This document shows positions 2,896-18,974 of a DNA stretch of 64,000 nucleotides, in pieces. The number at the start of each line of letters is the position of its first letter. Position 1 is the first letter of the stretch. This stretch comes from Perkinsus chesapeaki (taxonomy: Eukaryota; Perkinsozoa; Perkinsida; Perkinsidae), in the NCBI GenBank assembly GCA_013115145.1, contig JAAPAO010000049.1:39204-103203 (forward strand), given 5' to 3'. The position numbers and the translations under genes are program-made. The notes below the pieces were generated by a model that saw nothing but the letters and a program-made list of their open reading frames with translations, did not search any database and was not told the DNA's origin.

Positions 2896-5023
2896 ATGGC
2901 TAGTGGTGTCAGAATATCTCGTCCAATGGCTCTTGCCCGACTACTCCTTTACACTGTAGCATCAATAGTAGCAGGCCAGACCACCGCCCCAATAGAGCGG
3001 GTGCCCTTTATAATACACATATCAGATATCCATGTGTCACAGTAACCCCCTCGCCGCCCGACTATCCTCGGCATCCCCTCCCAGGTTTAATAACATAACT
3101 ATCGATAAGCTTTCTACATTCTGTCGGGATTTCCTTCCACGGGTGAAGGGCTACGGCTTGGTCGCCACTGGTGAGTTGCCTCTTGCCTTGCCTCTTGCCT
3201 TGCACCAGGACTGTTGCTTTCAGTTCTCGGCGGGGATCTTGTGGACTCTAACGTGGCAGCCTGGAGTGGCCAATATCCGGGGCCTATTGAGGAGGAGTGG
3301 GCCAAGCTCAGTCACGTGCTCATCAATGAGTGTGCGCCCCACAGCCCCATTCTCACTGTTCGGTGAGCTCCTGTGCTTTTGCTGGTTTGCCATCGCTCCT
3401 CCAGGGGGAACCACGACTCGTTCGCCGTTGCTGGTTATGATGATGAGAAGAATCATTTTTACAGAGAGATGGTGGAGCAGGTGGGCGCGTCGCTGGCAGG
3501 GGTCAGTTTCCAGGTTGCCTTATTTCAGTTGTGGCCGAAGTCTGCCGACTTCATCAGAGGGCCGGGGGGAAGCTGGATGCTCCCGATGTCGGACTACTTG
3601 CTCATCGGCCTCGATCTCACCCCATCTGCTGGCGCTAGCCGTCACTTCTTCGGTGTCTTCTCCAACGAGAATGAGGAATGGCTCAGAAGGGAATGGATCG
3701 AAAAAAGGCGGAACATTAGAACCATCATTGTTACTCACTACAATTTCGGTACACAGCTTCCAGGGCCTTGAGGGCTGCATCTGCCTCATTAGGAACACTT
3801 GAGCCGTCCGATCGCCGACGATTTGCCGATCTCTTGCATGAAGCCTCGGACGTTCATGTAGTTCTGTCGGGCCATACGCACACGGTGATGGGCCACTGGA
3901 TGTATGCCCAGTTCGAGCGACTTCTCGAGATGGAGGTGAAGTTGCTTTAGCTTCGGCCGCCGAAGTTCGGCGTTCTCTGTACAGCGCTCGTCAGGTACCC
4001 GACTTCAAGTTCGACGGCCTTGTTCGCCTTCTGCAACTACCGCCTGCCACATCGGAGAACAGCGACCCCCGAGAATGGCGGTATTCGATCCAGCCAGGTG
4101 AGGTCCCTCCCCCGACTATTCTGCCCCCCGTTCTCCACGCCGACGGTGAGATCTTCGTTACGGTGGTTGGGCCGAACAATATCGACAAGGTAGAGGCCAT
4201 CTGGGATGACCACGCTGTGCAGTTGGCGTTGGATGGCTCCGAGGATCATCTTTATAAAGGCCTGTTGGACCCTGCGTCTTCACTTGACTCTGGTATCGTA
4301 CGAGTCACTTACAACACCGGTGACTCTGTCGTAGAAACCAACATATCCCCTTTGAATCCACAGGCTCGGCTTATGGTATTCCCTCTGCAATGGGCGTTCA
4401 CTAACATGCATTACGCTATGTTTCTTGGCTCGGTTGCAGCATGGATTGGTAACATACTCCTTGCCTGGTCGCTCCAGGAGACCCTCGTTCGTTCTGGTAA
4501 ACTGCTACGGTATCTTCTACAAGGCATCGCCATCTTAATTCCCTTTTTGCCATGGAGCTTGGCTGTCGGATATCATAGTTGTCCGAGCATCGTGTTCTCC
4601 TTCGGAATATTCTGTTTGCGGACCCTCTCTTGGATGCCTAACGATACCTATGCAATTGCGTTCATTGGACTGAGTGTGAAGTTGGCCCTTTGCTTTGCGG
4701 TCGTGAAGTCGCTTGATGCTAAGAGTCGTTTGGCGCTTGTCACTATTCCTGTATTGCTATGGGGCCAATACTTCGCTCTGCGATGGACGGTGATGTCGTA
4801 TGGACCCTACGCCCTCATCATTGCGCCCGCGACCACACTGTGGGACGTAGTTTTCTGGTTTGGTATACTTAGAAAGTATATGGGATGGTGTAAACCCAAG
4901 AGGTCGGTCACCGTTCCGTATACTCAGTTGAGATTGGATCATGCTGATTCCACCAGCTCATCAGACAGTTCAGATGTGATAAATGGTACGTCAAGGCGAG
5001 CACGTCGTCGTGCTTCGCCGTAA
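2896..5023 (+). CDS. TMEM62-like metallophosphoesterase membrane protein, copy 2
   Basis: This is a tandem paralog of the gene upstream, with the same intron positions but diverged sequence. The start is taken at 2896 (M-A-S-G); ATG 2929 is an alternative and gives a tighter signal peptide. Spliced exons give HISDIHVS, LGGDLVDSN, RGNHD (acceptor at about 3414) and SGHTHT (about 3880), so the metal-binding set is complete. The final exon (about 3992-5023) encodes the PREWRYS block and then several membrane segments, and ends in a Ser/Arg-rich cytosolic tail. Introns are 40-55 nt. Expected to be a secretory-pathway membrane phosphoesterase, by family; substrate unknown. Nothing suggests a pseudogene. 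Confidence 0.85.
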
Positions 5024-5182: not shown

Positions 5183-6412
5183 TCACAGAACCATTATTGA
5201 TCGGTAGACCCCAAAACAGGATCCGATAGCAGAGATAACCAGTAGCGCGCCAAGCCCGCCAACGACAGCCATCCTTTCGGCTGAACCGTCCAAACGTTCT
5301 CCTCGTAAGTAAGATATTCTAAGCCAAAAAATGGTAGGATAGAAGTTGTGAATAAGTGAAAAGCATACTGAGCCTAGAAGGCCTACAAGACCTTGGAAGC
5401 TAGGAATCAGTATAGGGACAAGTATAGTAAAGCCCACCATAATAGTTCGAACCAGGATTGACCATAATATATTCTTATCTTCGATTCTTAAAGCTTTCTC
5501 GACTATCCTGAATGATGGGTTCATAAGGACAACGTAATGTGTAGCACAGACAACCAGTATAGAGAAAATGGCAATATAAGCAATGACACTCAACTTATGA
5601 CCAGTGGGAGACATTGCATCAATAACTGTATCAAAAGTCAGCAACTCATGGCCCCATCCTGCATAACCGGCTGCAGCTATGAAGAAATAAAGTACTATTA
5701 ATATTGACATTGAAATGTTAATAACGCGACTGCGTTGCTCTGGGTACTTCATGTCATGCAATATTGTCGTCGATGTACATGACACGGCGTAACCAAAAGT
5801 CATACTGGCAAATGTAATGCCAAGACCAACAAAGGAGGCTGGCGTGGGATCATAAGTGGCGGAGGAGTCTCGATTTATAGCCTTGAAGATTCCTCCAACC
5901 ACAATGGAGACAAGTAGAACAAACACGGCAGCAACTCCGACAGTTCCACTCACATACCCCACATGCTTCATTGTTCGTAGCCAGGAAAAAGGTAACATAA
6001 TTCCGCCCCAGATAAGTATCCAATACCTCTGATCTATCTGAGGAGCAAGCTTTACCGAGTTGGAGCCGAGTAAGAGCATCAATAGGCAGCTAGTTCCAAT
6101 CAAGGCTGCATTAAGGGCTACCGTAACGCTTATCATACCAATTCGGCCGAAAGCTGCGCGGCCTATATCCTCATAGTTGTGAGTTTCAGAAGTCATACAT
6201 AGTCTAAGAAGTTGGATGTAAAGAATACCAAGTGCACCGCAGAGGATGAGGAGGACAAAGCCAAAGACATAGCCAGCCTCTGCAACGGCCCGAGGGATAC
6301 TTAACATTCCAACACCGACACCGGTGAGGAGCATGTTGGTAACCGCCGACCTCGAAGTCTGCTTACCGGCCTCGATCTTGATGGATGATGTCGACTCTAG
6401 AGTCATTGCCAT
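5183..6412 (-). CDS. Amino-acid transporter of the AAAP family, copy 1
   Basis: A single-exon frame of about 409 residues with eleven predicted membrane segments. It opens with the hallmark G-x-G-x-L-x-x-P-R block (LLTGVGVGMLSIPRAVAEAG), as in the Aa_trans family (AVT/SLC32/36/38), which carries neutral amino acids with protons or sodium across vacuolar or plasma membranes. The start is at 6412 (M-A-M-T-L) or 6406. The three paralogs to its right are homologous over the whole length but this is the most diverged together with copy 4. No intron is present, unlike most neighbours. Substrate cannot be told from sequence. Confidence 0.88.
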   Translation of the reverse strand: MAMTLESTSSIKIEAGKQTSRSAVTNMLLTGVGVGMLSIPRAVAEAGYVFGFVLLILCGALGILYIQLLRLCMTSETHNYEDIGRAAFGRIGMISVTVALNAALIGTSCLLMLLLGSNSVKLAPQIDQRYWILIWGGIMLPFSWLRTMKHVGYVSGTVGVAAVFVLLVSIVVGGIFKAINRDSSATYDPTPASFVGLGITFASMTFGYAVSCTSTTILHDMKYPEQRSRVINISMSILIVLYFFIAAAGYAGWGHELLTFDTVIDAMSPTGHKLSVIAYIAIFSILVVCATHYVVLMNPSFRIVEKALRIEDKNILWSILVRTIMVGFTILVPILIPSFQGLVGLLGSVCFSLIHNFYPTIFWLRISYLRGERLDGSAERMAVVGGLGALLVISAIGSCFGVYRSIMVL

Positions 6413-6648: not shown

Positions 6649-8619
6649 TTAAACCTGAGCCTGGAACTCCGAACTCTGCTCGATCTTGAACCAAACTAGC
6701 AATGCTTCGTACCATTCTTCATTCGTAAATGGAGGGTTCATGAAACTAGCAACCCACATTAAAGGATATGCTACTCTTTGTATTGTTGACTGTGATACTG
6801 CCCAGGCGACACTCTCACTTAGGGCATAACTAAACACAGGAGAGAACAGACAGACGCAGCAGCCACACTAACCTCGACACAAAGACCCCATCAACAACAA
6901 GCTCCCCTGTATCGGTGAGTGGGGCGAAAACTCCTTGCACGTCCCGAACTATGGCGATATCAACTAAGAGACTGCCACTCATCAATTTTTCAACATGCTC
7001 ACCGTTCTTACCTATCCGTGACAGAGAGGGCCGCGTTAATGCCCTAATCACCACGGAATCCCCAATAGCAAGATCTCCAGCTCGGCGGAAATCATCTTTG
7101 CCGAAATCAACGCGTACAAGGTGGTCAACCGAGGCACGCAGCGCTCGGCCGTCGGCCATGCGAAGGGAGAGCTGAAGTAACGCACTGCTTCAAGTCGTTC
7201 AAGAGGATACCGCAAGATAGAAGAGGTAGTAGCTTAGAGCTGACGACACAACTAACCGGAGACCTTTGTATCAGAAGTACCTACGTAATGCATCTTCCGA
7301 GAAGTATCTTTGTGGATCCAGCCAACCACTGTAGTCGGGACTCCTTCAATTCCCGACACAATCCTGTCCCCAATTGTGATCTCCGACATATACTTCATGG
7401 AGGAGGCTACAAGAAATAGTCAGCATTTAGATAACCAGCATTTCCTTCGATGCAGGCAGCTGATGCTACTCAACCTTGAGGCGACTTATCGAAGGGGCAA
7501 CCTGCCTTGGCCTCGTGATATCTCCACCAGTGCATTGCCAGGGAAGCATGCCGGTCGACACAGCGACGTATACTCTTCGACCTGATAGGAAGGCCGGAGA
7601 AACGAGTGGGCGACGAGCATACCATGAGTTTACCAAGAGTATTAAGAAGATGGGCACCTTGCTTCGAGCGCGCCTTAAACCTCCGTTCCCTGCAAAGCAC
7701 TAAGGCATTGATCTCGTCCCGGCATTCACGAGAACCTGCGAAGCGTACCGCTGTCCCCGATAAACGCGGAATTACAGAACTTCTTGTGATCTTTGGGCAA
7801 GTATGTGCTATGATGAAGCTCGCCACACTTATTGAGCTGAATAAGGCTGCACAAGCAATATGACAGAAATGGGTCGACGTTGCGGTATGCCGATGCCTGC
7901 AGATTGAGGTCTGCCTCACAATAGATGTCAACAGTATCTGAGCGAGAAGAGCGGAACTGAGCTTTCGCCGCATATCACTAGTGTGTACGATACCCAACTG
8001 AAACAGGTCTAACCAGTAAGTAGGAACCATTAGCACGTGTTATACTGGCGTCCCTCTTTACCTAGAGCCTCCCTACGAAGGGAACGAGTGTATCTCACGC
8101 TACTAAGTAGGCTCGGCTAGCTATCGAAGCCTTTACACTAAACACCTACCTTTATACTGCCCGATACTCGCGGTGCCCCATGAGGTACCTGGTATCTGAA
8201 ACAGATCACGTTCGGGATGCTCTAGGGACACACAGTCGGCCACAAAGCGAAAGCTCACTTGGGTCTTGGTTAGGCCATTACCAAGCGAATGCACCGTGCC
8301 TAAGAACCTTTTCAAGTCAGTTACCCACTTTCGACACCTTACTGGTTTCCGATAACAGGGGAATGCAACACCAGACCAGAGCCCATAAGAGCCCTCCAGG
8401 AAGACGAATCCGCTGCAGTCGGTAAATGGCAAGACCTGAAGGATCCCAGTATCCCGGAGACGCGCAGTCCATGGTAGAAAATGCAGCTGAACTCGCGGAA
8501 ATGATACTTCACAAGATTCCTAGGAAAACCGCATCCGAGAACAAGAACGAGAAGAAGACACTGTAGTGTAGATCCGGCGTCGGGACTTGTTCCAGAGAGA
8601 ACTCGAGGGGAGCATCCAT
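6649..8619 (-). CDS. Secreted or membrane protein with C-terminal Hedgehog-type Hint domain
   Basis: A multi-exon gene lying between two transporters. The Hint domain reads, in order: a Gly-Cys pair (Cys codon 7499-7497) followed by P-F-D-K, MSEITIGDRIV, a PTTVVGWIHKD block, LSLRMADGRALRASVDHLVRV, and GVFAPLTDTGELVVDGVFVS then S-Y-A. These correspond to the start cysteine, the 'GDRV' strand, the Asp/His block, the T-x-x-H block and the 'APLT..G.lvVdg...SCYA' block of Hedgehog C-terminal domains. Such domains cleave the chain before the cysteine. The expected Thr of T-x-x-H is Ser, and the Cys of SCYA is Ser. The N-terminal half (about 8540-7500) is cysteine-rich, with a hydrophobic leader, and matches nothing I recognise. 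Introns near 7474-7407 and about 6833-6875 are clear; the first two splice sites (very short) and the start 8619 are uncertain. Confidence 0.7.
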
Positions 8620-8646: not shown

Positions 8647-9963
8647 TTAATGCAATGCAGATCTACGTATATCGACAGAACGCAACAGAGACCAAGGAAT
8701 AGACGAAGCGCAGATGGCTAACGTGATGACTGCATCATATATCCCACAGACAGAACCGACCAATGATATCAACAGCAAAAGGCAAAGAAGGACTATTTGA
8801 AGAATTGCCCGCTTAGATCCTGCTCTGAACTCACTCCAGAGAAAAAGGCTAATAAAAAATATAGGCGGATAGAAATTATGAATCAGAGAATAACAAACGG
8901 AGCCCAAAAGGCCGATAAGACCCTGGAAATTAGGTACAAATATTGCAACAATAACGGTAAAGGCGACTAAAGTGCTTCTTATAGCACAAGATTTGACAAA
9001 CTGGCCTTCCTTGACATTAAAGGCATGTTCAAGTATACGACTCGATGGATTCAGCATGACAGCATAATGAGTAATACATAACAACAGAATACTACATATA
9101 CTAATATAAGAGACTACATCATGACCAGAACCACTTCCAGTAACAGCATCAATAATATTCTGAAATTTAAGAAGAGAGTTTCCCCAACCAATATAACCAG
9201 ACAATGACACAAGGAAGTAGACAATAGCAATAATGCAAAGTCCCCAATAGACAACTCGTCGACGGGCTTGTGGATATTTCATATCATGTAACACGGTCGT
9301 ACTGGCACATGTTACGGCAAAAGCAAGCGTCATACTTGCGAAAGACATACCCAGCCCAATAGCTGTGACAGGGTACGGGTCATGAGATATATCGTCATGA
9401 ATCTCAGGATTCAACGCTCGAGCGAACCCCGCATAAATGAGCACCAACAAAAGACATATAACCGAAGACACTCCTACTGTACCACTTATATAACCGATAT
9501 GCTTCATATTAGGCAACCATGAGAGCGGTAAGAGGATGCAAGTCCATATGAGTATCCAGTAGGGCTGCGGGATTGCTGGATAAAGCTTATATGAGTTTTG
9601 GCCAAGGAGTAGCATAAGCAAACAACATGTACCAATTAAAGCACCATTGACTCCAAATGTAACAGCAAATAATCCCCATCGACCAAAGACATCCATACCG
9701 ATATCTTCATAACTACGCGTTTCTGGTTTCATACAGGCACGTAGAAGTTGAGTATAGAGGATTCCGACAACAGCACTAAATACCATAAGAATAAATCCAA
9801 ATGCATATCCAGCTTGAGCTATTGCCCTTGGTAGACTGAGCATTCCGACACCAATACCAGTGAGGGCAATGTTGGCCACGGCCGACATGTTCGACTGACC
9901 ATGCGATGGAGTGACACCTGACTTTATGCTGTCGATTGTATCAGATGCCTCTACGACTGGCAT
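8647..9963 (-). CDS. Amino-acid transporter of the AAAP family, copy 2
   Basis: An intronless frame of 438 residues from ATG 9963; an in-frame ATG at 10020 would add 19 residues, but alignment with the paralogs favours 9963. It has the G-x-G-M-L-S-L-P-R signature after a variable N terminus and about eleven membrane segments. The core from about residue 40 to residue 390 is almost identical at protein and DNA level to copy 3, while the last 40 residues and the N terminus differ. Function is inferred as proton- or sodium-coupled amino-acid transport in an organelle or plasma membrane. Confidence 0.88.
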   Translation of the reverse strand: MPVVEASDTIDSIKSGVTPSHGQSNMSAVANIALTGIGVGMLSLPRAIAQAGYAFGFILMVFSAVVGILYTQLLRACMKPETRSYEDIGMDVFGRWGLFAVTFGVNGALIGTCCLLMLLLGQNSYKLYPAIPQPYWILIWTCILLPLSWLPNMKHIGYISGTVGVSSVICLLLVLIYAGFARALNPEIHDDISHDPYPVTAIGLGMSFASMTLAFAVTCASTTVLHDMKYPQARRRVVYWGLCIIAIVYFLVSLSGYIGWGNSLLKFQNIIDAVTGSGSGHDVVSYISICSILLLCITHYAVMLNPSSRILEHAFNVKEGQFVKSCAIRSTLVAFTVIVAIFVPNFQGLIGLLGSVCYSLIHNFYPPIFFISLFLWSEFRAGSKRAILQIVLLCLLLLISLVGSVCGIYDAVITLAICASSIPWSLLRSVDIRRSALH

Positions 9964-10183
9964 TGTGAATAAATCAAGATCGTATTCCCCTGAATCGCCA
10001 AACGCGCCATCTAGATGCACACTGTGAAGAACGCAAATACTTCCGGTGATATGTGTTATTAAATGACTGCAACGATAGCATGACGGCTTCTCTTTTCAAT
10101 GATGATATAAAGTATGGGAAGCGATCCAGAATAACTATGGCGGGAAGCCACCACTCAACTACAAGGATCATCTGCTGGCACAC

Positions 10184-14241: not shown

Positions 14242-14490
14242 TGATGGGATTCGCCATAACTGGTAACTCAATGCCGCTAGGCGCAAGTAAAACTAGCTAC
14301 AAATGATCTTATACTCAACTATCTTCAGATCTATATCATCTAGATACCCATTATCGAAGGCCACGGTTACAATATTGGGCGAGCGAGATCTAATAATAGT
14401 CCCAGGAAACCAATGCCGACGGTTGACACCGTTTAGCATAATATAAGCGACCGATATCCGCTGGCCAATCATGAGACTGGGAGTCTCATC
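14242..14490 (-). repeat. 3' LTR of the retrotransposon
   Basis: Direct repeat of 20947-21195 with three substitutions. The last 66 codons of the integrase frame and its stop codon (14293) lie inside this LTR. On the plus strand it begins TGATGG and ends CTCATC. Confidence 0.92.
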
Positions 14491-16206
14491 GCGCCCCCCT
14501 TGTGGGCCTCCACAAGCATCAGACGGGATCTTCCATTGCACCGCATCCAAGCGTATCATAACAGGGGTATTGTCATTACCATCCAAGAACCATACCCATA
14601 GTTTATTGGAATAATCGCAAGGATCGTATGTCACTCTAGCGGATCGCCAAGCGGAAGTGGAGTCCATTTTAACATCAATATACATACCTTCTCGAGAAAC
14701 AACAGCAGAACCATCGCACGGATAAGGGTACAACATAACAATATTGTAAAGGTTCTCGGTAGTGACCAAGCCATTTGCCAACCTTACTTTGACACGCCGT
14801 CCCGAGATGCACTCGATGATATGGCCCATCCGAAAACTCATACCGAGCTTACGGCCTCCCATATAGACCAAAACACAATCTCCAGGACGAAAGGTGCCTC
14901 GGACTTTACCGTCGCAAGCAGTAGATCGGCATTTCTGAGCAACAGCGGTGAGGGAACGGTCTTTGAGATCACGCCACAGCCACTGCATAAAACAGTTCCT
15001 AACCGCGCGAACGCGATTGGGACACAACGACTCGTGACCATTAGCAGATTCTTGGACCGCCTCGACACAGCCCCGCGACCGAGTACGGCCACAGTGCAAA
15101 CTATCTGGAGTGATGATATCGGCGCCTTCCTCAGAAACATAGAAGCTGCCCAGAGGGCGAGTGTTCAGCAGTAACATTACCTCCTCCAGTAGCTCATCCT
15201 GCGCGTCCGCATTCTCCGGCCAACGCCCCGCAGTATGGCGCAACATCACTCGCAAACGGTCACTAGCAATGCCGTGAAGCTTCTCGGATCCGAGCTCCCA
15301 AGGCGCCCGGCTGGAAATCAGCTCGACCCGAGCATTGATCTCAGAGCTGACTTTAGAGACAAAATTCTCCTCAGTCCGGAAATAACTAGCACGATCACAC
15401 ACCACGATAGCAACGGAACCAGTGCGTAACTTGAGCAATCGAAGAACACGGAGAGCTTCACGAGCGGTCTCGCTAGAGACTCTAAAAAGGCTTATGTGCT
15501 TACTATACAAACAGCAAGCCGACATAACTTTCCATTTATCCCCCACCGAGTAGAAGTCTATAGCAACCTTATAGTAAGTAGGCATCCTCGCCAGGAATGT
15601 TTCATCGGAGTGACCAACAGAAGGAAGCTGTGTCCAATCCCGTCTCGCACGCAGGATCTTACAAACGTGGCACTGAGCCACTAGGTCCTTCATTTGCCGG
15701 CCACAACCATCCATATGAAACATAGTACACCGCGACAAAGAATCTCGCACCCCAGCATGTCGACAAGCTCGATGGCCATCAAGAAGAATCTTTCGCCTCA
15801 CAGAATCTGCTGCCCTAGGTATAACATAACGGAGGACTTGAGTACCATAGGGACTACCCGAGCGAAAGACAACTAAACCATCAGCATCGCACAATAAGGG
15901 GCCACACGCGGGACCTTTGCCAGCTCGAATCTCCTGACATCGCACATCATCAGCTTGAGCATTTGCCACTACAACTTTACGATCGTCATCACTAAACATA
16001 TGGGGGTATTCCAGACCATTGGCCTCTCCGCCCCCCTTGACATTCCACTTTAATAGGTGAATGACAAAACGTAAGGCTTTAAACGAATGACAAATAGCAT
16101 CAAAGCTGAACGACTGCTTAGCCACACGATTAGACAGACTTGTCGTCTCATCAGACCGATCAGTCTCAGCAAACCGAATGTAGTCCTCGACCAGTTGGTC
16201 AACCAA
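14293..16206 (-). CDS. Retrotransposon integrase ORF (third frame)
   Basis: An open frame of about 637 residues reached by -1 frameshift from the RT frame. In order it shows an H-H-C-C zinc block (GHRACRHAG ... QCHVCK), then a D-D-E integrase core (AIDFYSVG, VCDRASYF, LGSEKLHG), then two small barrel-like segments: one with RRVKVRLANGLVTTENLY and, at the very end, HWFPGTIIRSRSPNIVTVAF, resembling a Tudor or chromo-like reader. There is no ATG suited to independent translation near the start, and a TAG closes this frame at about 16213, so the frame opens only inside the overlap with the RT frame. The C-terminal reader is encoded by the LTR. Confidence 0.85.
   Translation of the reverse strand: MVDQLVEDYIRFAETDRSDETTSLSNRVAKQSFSFDAICHSFKALRFVIHLLKWNVKGGGEANGLEYPHMFSDDDRKVVVANAQADDVRCQEIRAGKGPACGPLLCDADGLVVFRSGSPYGTQVLRYVIPRAADSVRRKILLDGHRACRHAGVRDSLSRCTMFHMDGCGRQMKDLVAQCHVCKILRARRDWTQLPSVGHSDETFLARMPTYYKVAIDFYSVGDKWKVMSACCLYSKHISLFRVSSETAREALRVLRLLKLRTGSVAIVVCDRASYFRTEENFVSKVSSEINARVELISSRAPWELGSEKLHGIASDRLRVMLRHTAGRWPENADAQDELLEEVMLLLNTRPLGSFYVSEEGADIITPDSLHCGRTRSRGCVEAVQESANGHESLCPNRVRAVRNCFMQWLWRDLKDRSLTAVAQKCRSTACDGKVRGTFRPGDCVLVYMGGRKLGMSFRMGHIIECISGRRVKVRLANGLVTTENLYNIVMLYPYPCDGSAVVSREGMYIDVKMDSTSAWRSARVTYDPCDYSNKLWVWFLDGNDNTPVMIRLDAVQWKIPSDACGGPQGGRDETPSLMIGQRISVAYIMLNGVNRRHWFPGTIIRSRSPNIVTVAFDNGYLDDIDLKIVEYKIICS
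14491..14501 (-). other. Candidate polypurine tract
   Basis: On the minus strand the bases just before the 3' LTR read AAGGGGGGCGC. A purine-rich run directly upstream of the 3' LTR is the expected priming site for plus-strand DNA synthesis. Confidence 0.6.
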
Positions 16207-18974
16207 GGGCTACATTCGGTTTCATGACCAACTTGGTCATGAACCTCATCGTTCACAGAAACTAGATATGAGACTTTATCAACAAGTGGCTGCTCATAAT
16301 GGGGTTGCCACTCAGAGTCTAGAGGATCTTCTGTGTGGTCGAAGATTGCCCAGGCATTGCTGCCTCGCATAGGATCACGAGCAACCTCTTCGTCAAGACC
16401 ACCTTCGTCACACAAACACTGATGTAACGATAATCCAGACGCAACCAATCGCGCCTCAAAGACTCTTGAAAGTAAGTCTGCCTCGTCGTTGCGGGAACCC
16501 TCGATGTGATGAACAGAGACATCTGAGAGCTCACGCATTCGTGATAACTCAGCCAGTAATCCACTCACTAACCTGGATAATACTCGGCGCTCGACCCCCC
16601 GAGACTCTTTGAGGAGATCAGCGCTATCGCAGGAAGTGGCCCACCGGACACATGACAGATTATCACAATAGATCTCAACCTTGATGCGACCCTCAACACT
16701 TGTGGTAGATGAGACTCCAGTAACACTTTGCCTGTACTCGAGGAAGTCGACAATCATCTGAGTCATCCTTAAAAGGACAACCAACTCGCGACGATTCGAG
16801 TGCCAGTTTACCTCGCTCTTCTTAAATCGGTAGACTTCACTGAAGAGACGAGTGGCGTCAGCAAAGGCTACAATACCACCACCAGATGAAGACGCATCGC
16901 AGTAGCAACGGAGAACGATCGGGCTGGCTTCGATTGGCCTAACCTCGGAAGTGTGCCGGCAGGTTTCCCTAACCAGCTCTTCCATCCAATCTAGCATACA
17001 CCGGAAAGCCGCATAAGCATTGTCGGTCAGACGAGAAAGATCAATCTGGGTGTCCCAAGGCTCTCTGTGAAAACATCGAGCAATAAGCGACCGGATAGCA
17101 TCGCCACAACCCCTAGCATATGGGTGTTGCTTCCCAGGGTCGTAGCTTAGACACCCACCGGCCTTGAAAACATCAATCTTGCTGACCTGAGCTGTCGTGC
17201 GACAACGCTCAATGAACGAAACCACCACAGCCAATCGTTTCTCTCGTTGACATGTCAATACTATTAAACTGCTCTCGTAACGGACTCGCATGCCGAGGAA
17301 GGAACCCTCGCTAGCAACAGCGATCTCGACACCGCATTCAGAGAGCAACGAAAGTAGTTGATGCTGTTTGTCTTCTGTAACCATTATGAACACTTTCCGC
17401 ATCTGTACATCAAACCCCGCCCGAAGGAGGAGACATAACAGCAACTTGAACATAAAGACGACCACGCGGATGGTTCCGGAGATGGCCATATCATCCACAA
17501 ACAACATCAACATCAACGTCCAGAGCTGTTGCAAAAGCAAAGCACACAGCTGCTGGATTCGGTGAAAATCTATAGACCGGGCAGAGCATACCAACCGACC
17601 AAGAGAGCCAGAGAGCCCACAGGGCCCAAAGACCACTCCGAAACATAAACGGCATGAGGCAAACAATTCACCGGTCCCTGACCGAAGGTGTAAAACGTTG
17701 TTCACACATCGGCATTTGTAAAAGGCTGCCCGAGCATCCAGAAGGAAGGTACACTCTCTGGACTCTGCTCGCAGTAATGCGATAGGGTGAAATAACAATG
17801 GCACATCACTGCTAGCGGGCGGTAACGCCTTATTTACACAACGGAAATCCACGACCAAACGGCTTTTGCGAGAGGTAGTTGGTGGTATGAGAAAAACCTG
17901 AGCGGCTGCTGCCGACTCGCCGACCCCCTTCACGGAGCACTCAGTACTCGAGGTCGGGATCCACCAACGAGAAAGGACATACTCTTGAACTAGCCGGCGA
18001 TACTCGCTTTTTAAAGGATCACTCAAGCGAGAATATAACGACGCCGCATAGGAACGACCTTTCTCCTGTACCGTCTTGGGTGTTGGAACCCAGATCTCAC
18101 AAACATGAGTCTGCTCCACGACATCCGTCGTTTCACAAGGAGCGAGCTCACGAACCCTGCTCTTGTAAGCACCGTTGGTCTTAGGGATAACCTTCCACCC
18201 TTCATGGACAACTTGGCTCAGGATTTCATCGACAATACCTGACTCGTGCGGTTGAAGATCGGCACGAAGAACTCGGTCAGGCTTGCTCGGAACGGTCGAT
18301 GATGAATCCACACAACCATGAGTGGTAGAAATAAAACCTTCATCCTTGTAGTCACCGATGTTATTTAGGACATCTATATCTAGCTCTACGACTTGTGCTA
18401 CTGAGCCTAGACCACCGAATTCTTCGGGAGAGTCACTCTGACGGTAAACACACTCCCCACCGACATGCATATAGGTCGCTCCTCGAGACTCTAACCCCCA
18501 CTCTTCGATAAGCTGTCGGCCAGCAAGGACCAATAACTCATCGTTAGGAACAACACCAGGAGATGGGAGTATACGGAGCTCACAGTCGACGAATTCGGAT
18601 ACCAAGGTTCTAGACTCAAAGCCGTAGACAGCTATTTTACAATCAATCTGATGCTGGATGGCCACTCTCTGACCGTTCGCCATGGCAACGAGGGTGCTAC
18701 CCCCGGTACCATTAACCGAACAGCCAATAGCATCAAGAGCCACTATGGCTTTATCTACACTTGATACTAATAAATAAGGCCGGCCAGCACCGGAATCTAC
18801 TACGCATCGTGCCTCCAAGAATGGAGAATCAGATGCAAAACGTGCAGGACTAATTCGCACCCTCAAAGACATCTCGGGTGGTACAGGAGTTAAAAGGGAA
18901 ATAACATCAAAAATAGAAGAAGTCGGATGTCCGAGAGCTAATGTATCACTAGGCACATCGCCCTCATCATTCAT
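16050..18974 (-). CDS. Retrotransposon protease, reverse transcriptase, RNase H ORF (second frame)
   Basis: A frame of about 974 residues from the first ATG; the frame is also open upstream through the gag stop, consistent with entry by frameshift. Near residue 55 is the aspartic protease block CVVDSGAGRPYL. RT follows with RLVVDFRCVNKAL, FLDARAAFYK, FGPCGLSGSL and the catalytic MLFVDDMAIS, then FLGMRV. RNase H shows CYCDASSSGGG, NRRELVVLL, YCDNLSCVRWA and SRNDEADLLSR, so its acidic residues are present. The frame ends at 16050, 25 bases past a second slippery heptamer that leads into integrase. Confidence 0.88.
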   Translation of the reverse strand: MNDEGDVPSDTLALGHPTSSIFDVISLLTPVPPEMSLRVRISPARFASDSPFLEARCVVDSGAGRPYLLVSSVDKAIVALDAIGCSVNGTGGSTLVAMANGQRVAIQHQIDCKIAVYGFESRTLVSEFVDCELRILPSPGVVPNDELLVLAGRQLIEEWGLESRGATYMHVGGECVYRQSDSPEEFGGLGSVAQVVELDIDVLNNIGDYKDEGFISTTHGCVDSSSTVPSKPDRVLRADLQPHESGIVDEILSQVVHEGWKVIPKTNGAYKSRVRELAPCETTDVVEQTHVCEIWVPTPKTVQEKGRSYAASLYSRLSDPLKSEYRRLVQEYVLSRWWIPTSSTECSVKGVGESAAAAQVFLIPPTTSRKSRLVVDFRCVNKALPPASSDVPLLFHPIALLRAESRECTFLLDARAAFYKCRCVNNVLHLRSGTGELFASCRLCFGVVFGPCGLSGSLGRLVCSARSIDFHRIQQLCALLLQQLWTLMLMLFVDDMAISGTIRVVVFMFKLLLCLLLRAGFDVQMRKVFIMVTEDKQHQLLSLLSECGVEIAVASEGSFLGMRVRYESSLIVLTCQREKRLAVVVSFIERCRTTAQVSKIDVFKAGGCLSYDPGKQHPYARGCGDAIRSLIARCFHREPWDTQIDLSRLTDNAYAAFRCMLDWMEELVRETCRHTSEVRPIEASPIVLRCYCDASSSGGGIVAFADATRLFSEVYRFKKSEVNWHSNRRELVVLLRMTQMIVDFLEYRQSVTGVSSTTSVEGRIKVEIYCDNLSCVRWATSCDSADLLKESRGVERRVLSRLVSGLLAELSRMRELSDVSVHHIEGSRNDEADLLSRVFEARLVASGLSLHQCLCDEGGLDEEVARDPMRGSNAWAIFDHTEDPLDSEWQPHYEQPLVDKVSYLVSVNDEVHDQVGHETECSPWLTNWSRTTFGLLRLIGLMRRQVCLIVWLSSRSALMLFVIRLKPYVLSFTY
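16077..16083 (-). other. Predicted -1 frameshift site between RNase H and integrase
   Basis: The minus strand reads TTTAAAG, positioned T-TTA-AAG in the RT/RNase H frame, matching the X-XXY-YYZ rule. A -1 slip there enters the integrase frame exactly, 25 bases before the RT-frame stop codon. Confidence 0.65.

Follow-up and report, generated by a model that had tools for sequence, protein, structure and literature searches.

Introduction

Hog proteins without the Hedge ligand have been known from protists since 2008, and the chemistry in the literature cited here is that of fly and vertebrate Hedgehog. In the sections of Buerglin 2008 (PMC2362128) drawn on here, Hog proteins whose N-termini are secreted and contain conserved cysteines are described from several protist groups, among them dinoflagellates, Cryptosporidium, jakobids, and haptophytes; the alveolate representatives are the dinoflagellates Alexandrium, Amphidinium, and Karlodinium, as well as Cryptosporidium muris and C. 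parvum. In several of these protist groups, lineage-limited N-termini with conserved cysteines carry a signal peptide in those cases in which the start is certain. The same sections report that the cysteine of motif J is replaced with serine in "a few cases" in alveolates and with serine, threonine, or aspartate in mosses and red algae. HINT domains are also noted for chromerids, Cryptosporidium, and Gregarina in the cited part of PMC4501334.

According to the cited passages of PMC9163320, the H329A mutant of fly Hedgehog is inactive and T326A is much reduced in activity. The D303A mutant retains cleavage by thiol but not full cholesteroylation, showing that the two steps can come apart, and D46A in vertebrate domains behaves like fly D303A (PMC13060885, in part). 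The D303H mutant keeps its structure and activity and uses a broader range of sterols, its activity rising more than 200-fold with coprostanol and more than 300-fold with epicoprostanol. In simulation, the cysteine of motif J and the histidine of the HWY motif are both near cholesterol (PMC9163320). Inteins and bacterial intein-like domains have the Hint fold in common with these proteins. For splicing, an intein needs a part of its host protein on the far side.

Perkinsus chesapeaki is a mollusc parasite belonging to the perkinsozoan alveolates. Among the literature matches listed, no title or beginning of an abstract describes a Perkinsus Hog gene; the P. marinus column in the supplement to PMC4501334 may mention one. 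Here we describe a predicted Hog gene on the minus strand of a window of 64,000 nucleotides (bases 39204–103203 of contig C434; assembly total, 35,393,606 bases). An earlier note on this DNA had presented the protein as novel, a claim that the published protist proteins overtake: the gene is a good new example and not a new type of protein.

Identification of the Hog domain

The gene model, which runs from 8472 to 6649 on the minus strand, comprises nine exons and encodes a predicted product of 394 amino acids, laid out as a hydrophobic leader, a cysteine-rich region, and a Hog domain. A Pfam search with this product matched PF01079 (Hint) with E = 1.9e-24 and 86.9 bits (cut-off, 29.7), covering profile positions 12–206 of 213. 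The domain is thus a Hint/Hog domain far above chance, and the Hedgehog-type Hint domain proposed for this protist stands.

Chance matches were assessed with a profile of eight non-Perkinsus Hog domains, which had been found with the window product as the query. The three best of the 2063 six-frame open stretches in the whole window hold exons 7–8, exon 6, and exon 5, respectively; only the stretch with exons 7–8 is significant when taken alone (E = 3.6e-12), the E values of the other two being 0.045 and 0.17. After splicing, the Hog part scored 104.5 bits, versus a best score of 6.1 in 5000 random joins of open pieces elsewhere in the window, 3163 of which received any score. Against the PDB, the single Hog sequence found fly Hedgehog, with the laboratory mutant D303H (D46H; 6TYY) as the best match (2.9e-7), followed by 6TD6 (7.4e-6) and the wild type (1AT0, 1e-5). 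An eight-row profile gave Sonic Hedgehog at 1.7e-46, fly Hedgehog at 3.4e-44, and a best intein-type match at 7.6e-7, a result that counts less because the profile includes Hedgehog-like rows. Foldseek with the half-domain model of a GenBank protein (P0001, described below) returned no match at E ≤ 0.001 and 66 matches at E ≤ 10, the weak matches including inteins and 6TYY.

The earlier note had listed five Hint blocks in order, four of which, GDRIV, GWIHKD, SVDH, and APLTDTGELVVDG with SSYA, are present and ordered on the minus strand. The first block did not hold up. The Gly-Cys that had been taken for motif A, in AGCPFDKSPQG near 7502, is read in a frame other than that of the Hog exons and was rejected as a cleavage site; the motif A that we assign is CFPGNALVEIS, in which the predicted nucleophile, Cys197, is preceded by alanine and not glycine. 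Its codon (7546–7548) lies 46 bases outside the gene interval first proposed, which ended at 7502, whereas the model reaches 8472.

Gene model

The exons were placed by reading frame, homology, and the existing GenBank models, and all nine join in phase without a stop. Exon 1 (8343–8472; aa 1–43) holds a putative start codon and the hydrophobic leader, which is called by hydropathy only (17-residue peak of 1.91 from aa 24). Exon 2 (8150–8299; aa 44–93) encodes the following N-terminal region, and exons 3 (7776–7937; aa 94–147) and 4 (7623–7735; aa 148–185) the cysteine-rich region. Exon 5 (7506–7581; aa 186–210) carries motif A with Ala196 and Cys197 (Hint residue 1), the latter located by alignments. 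Exon 6 (7285–7406; aa 211–251) encodes GDRIV and His242 (Hint residue 46, fly Asp303), exon 7 (7012–7171; aa 252–304) SVDH with Ser265 and His268 (Hint residues 69 and 72), and exon 8 (6873–6963; aa 305–334) APLTDTGELVVDG. Exon 9 (6649–6829) completes SSYA and continues into a C-terminal region with EWYEALL and the stop codon TAA. All nine lie on the minus strand.

GenBank divides this gene between two models. The first, FOL47_007935 (P0002), fuses the front of the adjoining transporter to the N-terminal Hog exons, from the later part of exon 1 on, and ends just past motif A; it reads through the end of exon 5 to a stop without splicing, in a stretch that is an intron in our model. The second, FOL47_007934 (P0001), which starts inside exon 7 and contains that exon from its methionine on, accounts for the rest and is named Hedgehog protein Hint domain protein in UniRef. 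The joins 1/2 and 2/3 had been proposed before the comparison with P0002, which has both, and P0002 also reads motif A in the same frame. The end of exon 3, exon 4, and the start of exon 5 were adopted from P0002, displacing a model that lacked exon 4 and ended exon 3 elsewhere, and P0002 is therefore no independent check on them. Independent support comes from a partial protein of P. olseni, P0021 (FOZ63_003121), which aligns with aa 78–192 without a gap (77 of 115 residues identical) and covers the end of exon 2; since the alignment spans the joins 2/3, 3/4, and 4/5, it supports all three.

Two joins in the Hog part differ from those first proposed. Exon 6 ends at 7285 (TAC/GTAGGT), the phase of which fits exon 7, whereas that of a later donor (G/GTTAG) does not. 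A 48-nt intron precedes the APLT block in exon 8; it was adopted from P0001, in which the same 48 nt are removed. In Pfam, the Hog part still containing these 48 nt scored 77.7 bits, and the whole protein lacking them 86.9 bits. Exon 9 follows P0001 and the alignment with animal C-termini.

The eight introns range from 40 to 212 nt in length, and five are shorter than 50 nt, in line with the range of 39–1622 bp, mostly below 100, given for Perkinsus in the cited part of PMC3101222. Seven have GT-AG borders. The fifth is GC-AG (AAG/GCAGGT), a departure from the Perkinsus pattern, as the introns in the same source were validated by GT/AG borders; the cited part of PMC5029490 mentions introns bordered by G(C/A)-AG in a dinoflagellate. 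A GT donor for exon 5 (CAG/GTTGCC) was rejected by eye, its phase fitting no acceptor before the GDRIV block. The 5/6 join is supported by two further Hint loci of this genome (L001 and L002), which, read by eye, are interrupted at the corresponding position, directly behind motif A, by a GT-AG intron of phase 1. We infer that the gene was broken in GenBank on account of the GC donor. The practical outcome is a corrected model of a gene that had been split and joined to a transporter.

N-terminal region

Seven cysteines lie between aa 100 and 162, and all seven are conserved in P0021. At E ≤ 0.01, PF01079 was the only Pfam match in the whole 394-residue product: the Hedge domain (PF01085) was absent, the VWA domain (a Vint feature) had no match, and the N-terminal region matched no family. 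P0021 likewise had no NCBIfam match and no PDB match at E ≤ 1, and a structure prediction from two sequences for the N-terminal fragment of P. olseni reached a mean pLDDT of 38.4. A genome search for a second copy of the region found the window itself only. The view that the N-terminus is neither a Hedge ligand nor another known domain thus agrees with these searches. Like the alveolate Hog proteins in the cited sections of PMC2362128, the product has a Hog domain with a motif J region and a possible motif K region, and it shares with a few of them the serine of motif J; going by the published descriptions, it is set apart by its own N-terminal cysteine pattern, matched only in P. olseni. With its leader, the product is probably secreted.

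Relatives and active-site residues

A search of the genome with PF01079 found at least three further Hint loci, all above the cut-off: L001 and L002, both on a 22.7-kb contig (C528), and L003 on contig C1, which has one TGA within the Hint match that may represent either intron sequence or a genuine stop. These counts are lower bounds. The window gene itself was not among the matches of this search. When the window protein was used as the query, the window gene was recovered in three pieces together with, weakly, one locus on C528. The C1 locus has a relative in P. olseni, P0022 (FOZ60_006380). In a tree of 14 Hog rows, two of the 11 inner branches were well supported and six were open; the four P. 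chesapeaki rows did not form one group and were grouped in 43% of 200 bootstrap trees. A separate Hint protein, P0005 (449 aa), has SAHS instead of SCYA, and its C-terminus, a hydrophobic stretch followed by arginine, looks anchored.

Residues were counted in the alignment of these 14 rows, four of which are from P. chesapeaki. Cysteine at the first position of motif A is found in all rows by construction, as the rows were trimmed to begin there. His72 is found in all 14. At position 69, seven rows have serine, including all four P. chesapeaki loci, and seven have threonine; serine for threonine in TxxH, which had been called unusual, is therefore the rule in this genome. The position of the SCYA cysteine is occupied by cysteine (10 rows), asparagine (2), alanine (1), and serine (1, the window gene), a substitution that had likewise been thought unusual and that is among those already reported for alveolates (PMC2362128, in part). 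The residue before Cys1 is glycine in six rows and another in eight (alanine in the window gene). Position 46 is histidine in 10 rows, including all four P. chesapeaki loci, and aspartate in four. The agreement of the numbers 46, 69, and 72 with those of fly Hedgehog is no evidence in itself, because loop changes cancel out.

Like fly Hedgehog and vertebrate Sonic Hedgehog, the window gene thus has a Hint core with Cys1, His72, the APLT/VDG block, and a C-terminal extension. It differs from them in lacking Hedge and in having histidine for Asp46, serine for Thr69, serine for the SCYA cysteine, alanine for glycine before Cys1, and, aligned by eye in the motif K/L region, EWY for the animal HWY. 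The general-base histidine made in the laboratory in 6TYY is natural in P. chesapeaki. The APLT/VDG/SxYA block and the C-terminal extension also distinguish the gene from inteins, and, because the predicted protein terminates with the Hog domain (at 6649), nothing follows that could be spliced. A histidine as general base in all four loci, together with the sterol need reported for one species of the genus, is more interesting than the serine substitutions, and makes Perkinsus a compact case with at least four loci.

Proposed function and alternatives

We consider it about 65% probable that the gene encodes a secreted Hog protein, with a leader, a lineage-specific cysteine-rich N-terminus, and an autoprocessing domain, that cuts itself and passes a sterol to the N-terminal fragment. 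In the secretory route, Cys197 would attack the Ala196-Cys197 bond with the help of Ser265 and His268, giving an internal thioester. His242 would then activate a hydroxyl nucleophile, most likely a host-derived sterol, held by the C-terminal region, which resembles a sterol-recognition region. The N-terminal fragment would depart with the sterol on its C-terminus and stay at the membrane, cell surface, or wall. A host sterol is our first choice by inference, based on the histidine at the fly Asp303 position, the sterol data on D303H, and the reported sterol need of P. marinus, which reportedly requires sterols in its medium, the same passage arguing that synthesis may be possible (PMC2868825, in part).

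The positions of the cysteine, His46, Ser69, and His72 are filled in the predicted protein, which favors this explanation, as do the ungapped P. olseni fragment with its seven cysteines and the C-terminus, which aligns with animal Hog and is predicted to be helical (aa 348–364 and 371–381, pLDDT about 62–71; P0001 model, mean 65.9). Against it are the predicted alanine before Cys1, the one GC-AG intron that has to be assumed, and the Patched family (PF02460), for which an exon-by-exon search of the genome, a weak one, gave no match.

An alternative, which we regard as unlikely, is that the domain cuts itself without attaching a sterol, in which case the thioester would be resolved by water or by a small thiol or alcohol, with release of the cysteine-rich fragment as the sole outcome. 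The motif-J cysteine and the HWY histidine appear as serine and glutamate in the window gene, which speaks against a sterol, and the fly D303A mutant provides a precedent for cleavage by thiol without full cholesteroylation; the general-base histidine that supports sterol transfer in fly D303H and the retained, putatively helical C-terminal region argue the other way. It is rather improbable that the domain is inactive, being kept as a fold only, or that the gene is on its way out: the loss of the motif-J cysteine, the GC donor, GenBank models that do not span the gene, and the TGA in the paralogue L003 would suit such decay, but nine stop-free exons in phase, the retained Cys1, TxxH-type histidine, and APLT/VDG block, and the gap-free P. 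olseni fragment with all its cysteines do not. The recent transfer of an animal Hedgehog gene, or contamination from the mollusc host, would be suggested by the mollusc hosts of Perkinsus and by Hog being known best from animals, but is scarcely credible given the lack of Hedge, identities of only 27% with P0006, a named fish Hedgehog, and 33% with P0004, a protein with a Hedge domain, the location on a 103-kb contig bearing P. chesapeaki gene tags, short introns typical of the genus, and the P. olseni counterpart, which speaks against contamination.

If the protein does transfer a sterol to its N-terminal fragment, one may tentatively speculate, with more doubt than confidence, that at least four Hog loci with natural D46H-type chemistry could attach several host-derived sterols to secreted cysteine-rich proteins, thereby marking the parasite surface or wall without a Hedgehog receptor pathway.

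Genomic neighborhood

The gene was said to lie within a transporter array, and the amino-acid transporter family PF01490 was indeed found in all four neighboring same-strand ORFs tested. Downstream of the Hog stop, the ORF at 5183–6412 (minus strand) encodes a putative amino-acid transporter (E = 3.9e-48; 5186–6409 tested). On the other side, the ORF at 8647–9963 (minus strand), in part fused to the Hog gene in GenBank, matches PF01490 positions 2–406 of 410 by itself (8650–9966 tested), compared with only 2–279 in P0002. As this transporter ORF is complete alone, the fused model most likely arose from faulty gene prediction. No functional link between the Hog gene and its transporter neighbors was found.

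Elsewhere in the window, two similar plus-strand ORFs (1763–2791 and 3842–5023) resemble the C-terminal parts of paralogous membrane proteins and had no Pfam match at E ≤ 0.01; the pieces upstream of them recall, as an impression only, calcineurin-like phosphatases. A minus-strand ORF of 638 aa (14293–16209), the only Pfam match of which was a sub-threshold one to Agenet (E = 0.0071), similarly gives the impression of a retroelement integrase. Between 8647 and 11572, two neighboring transporter ORFs have long near-identical stretches in common in their translations, which suggests recent duplication or conversion.
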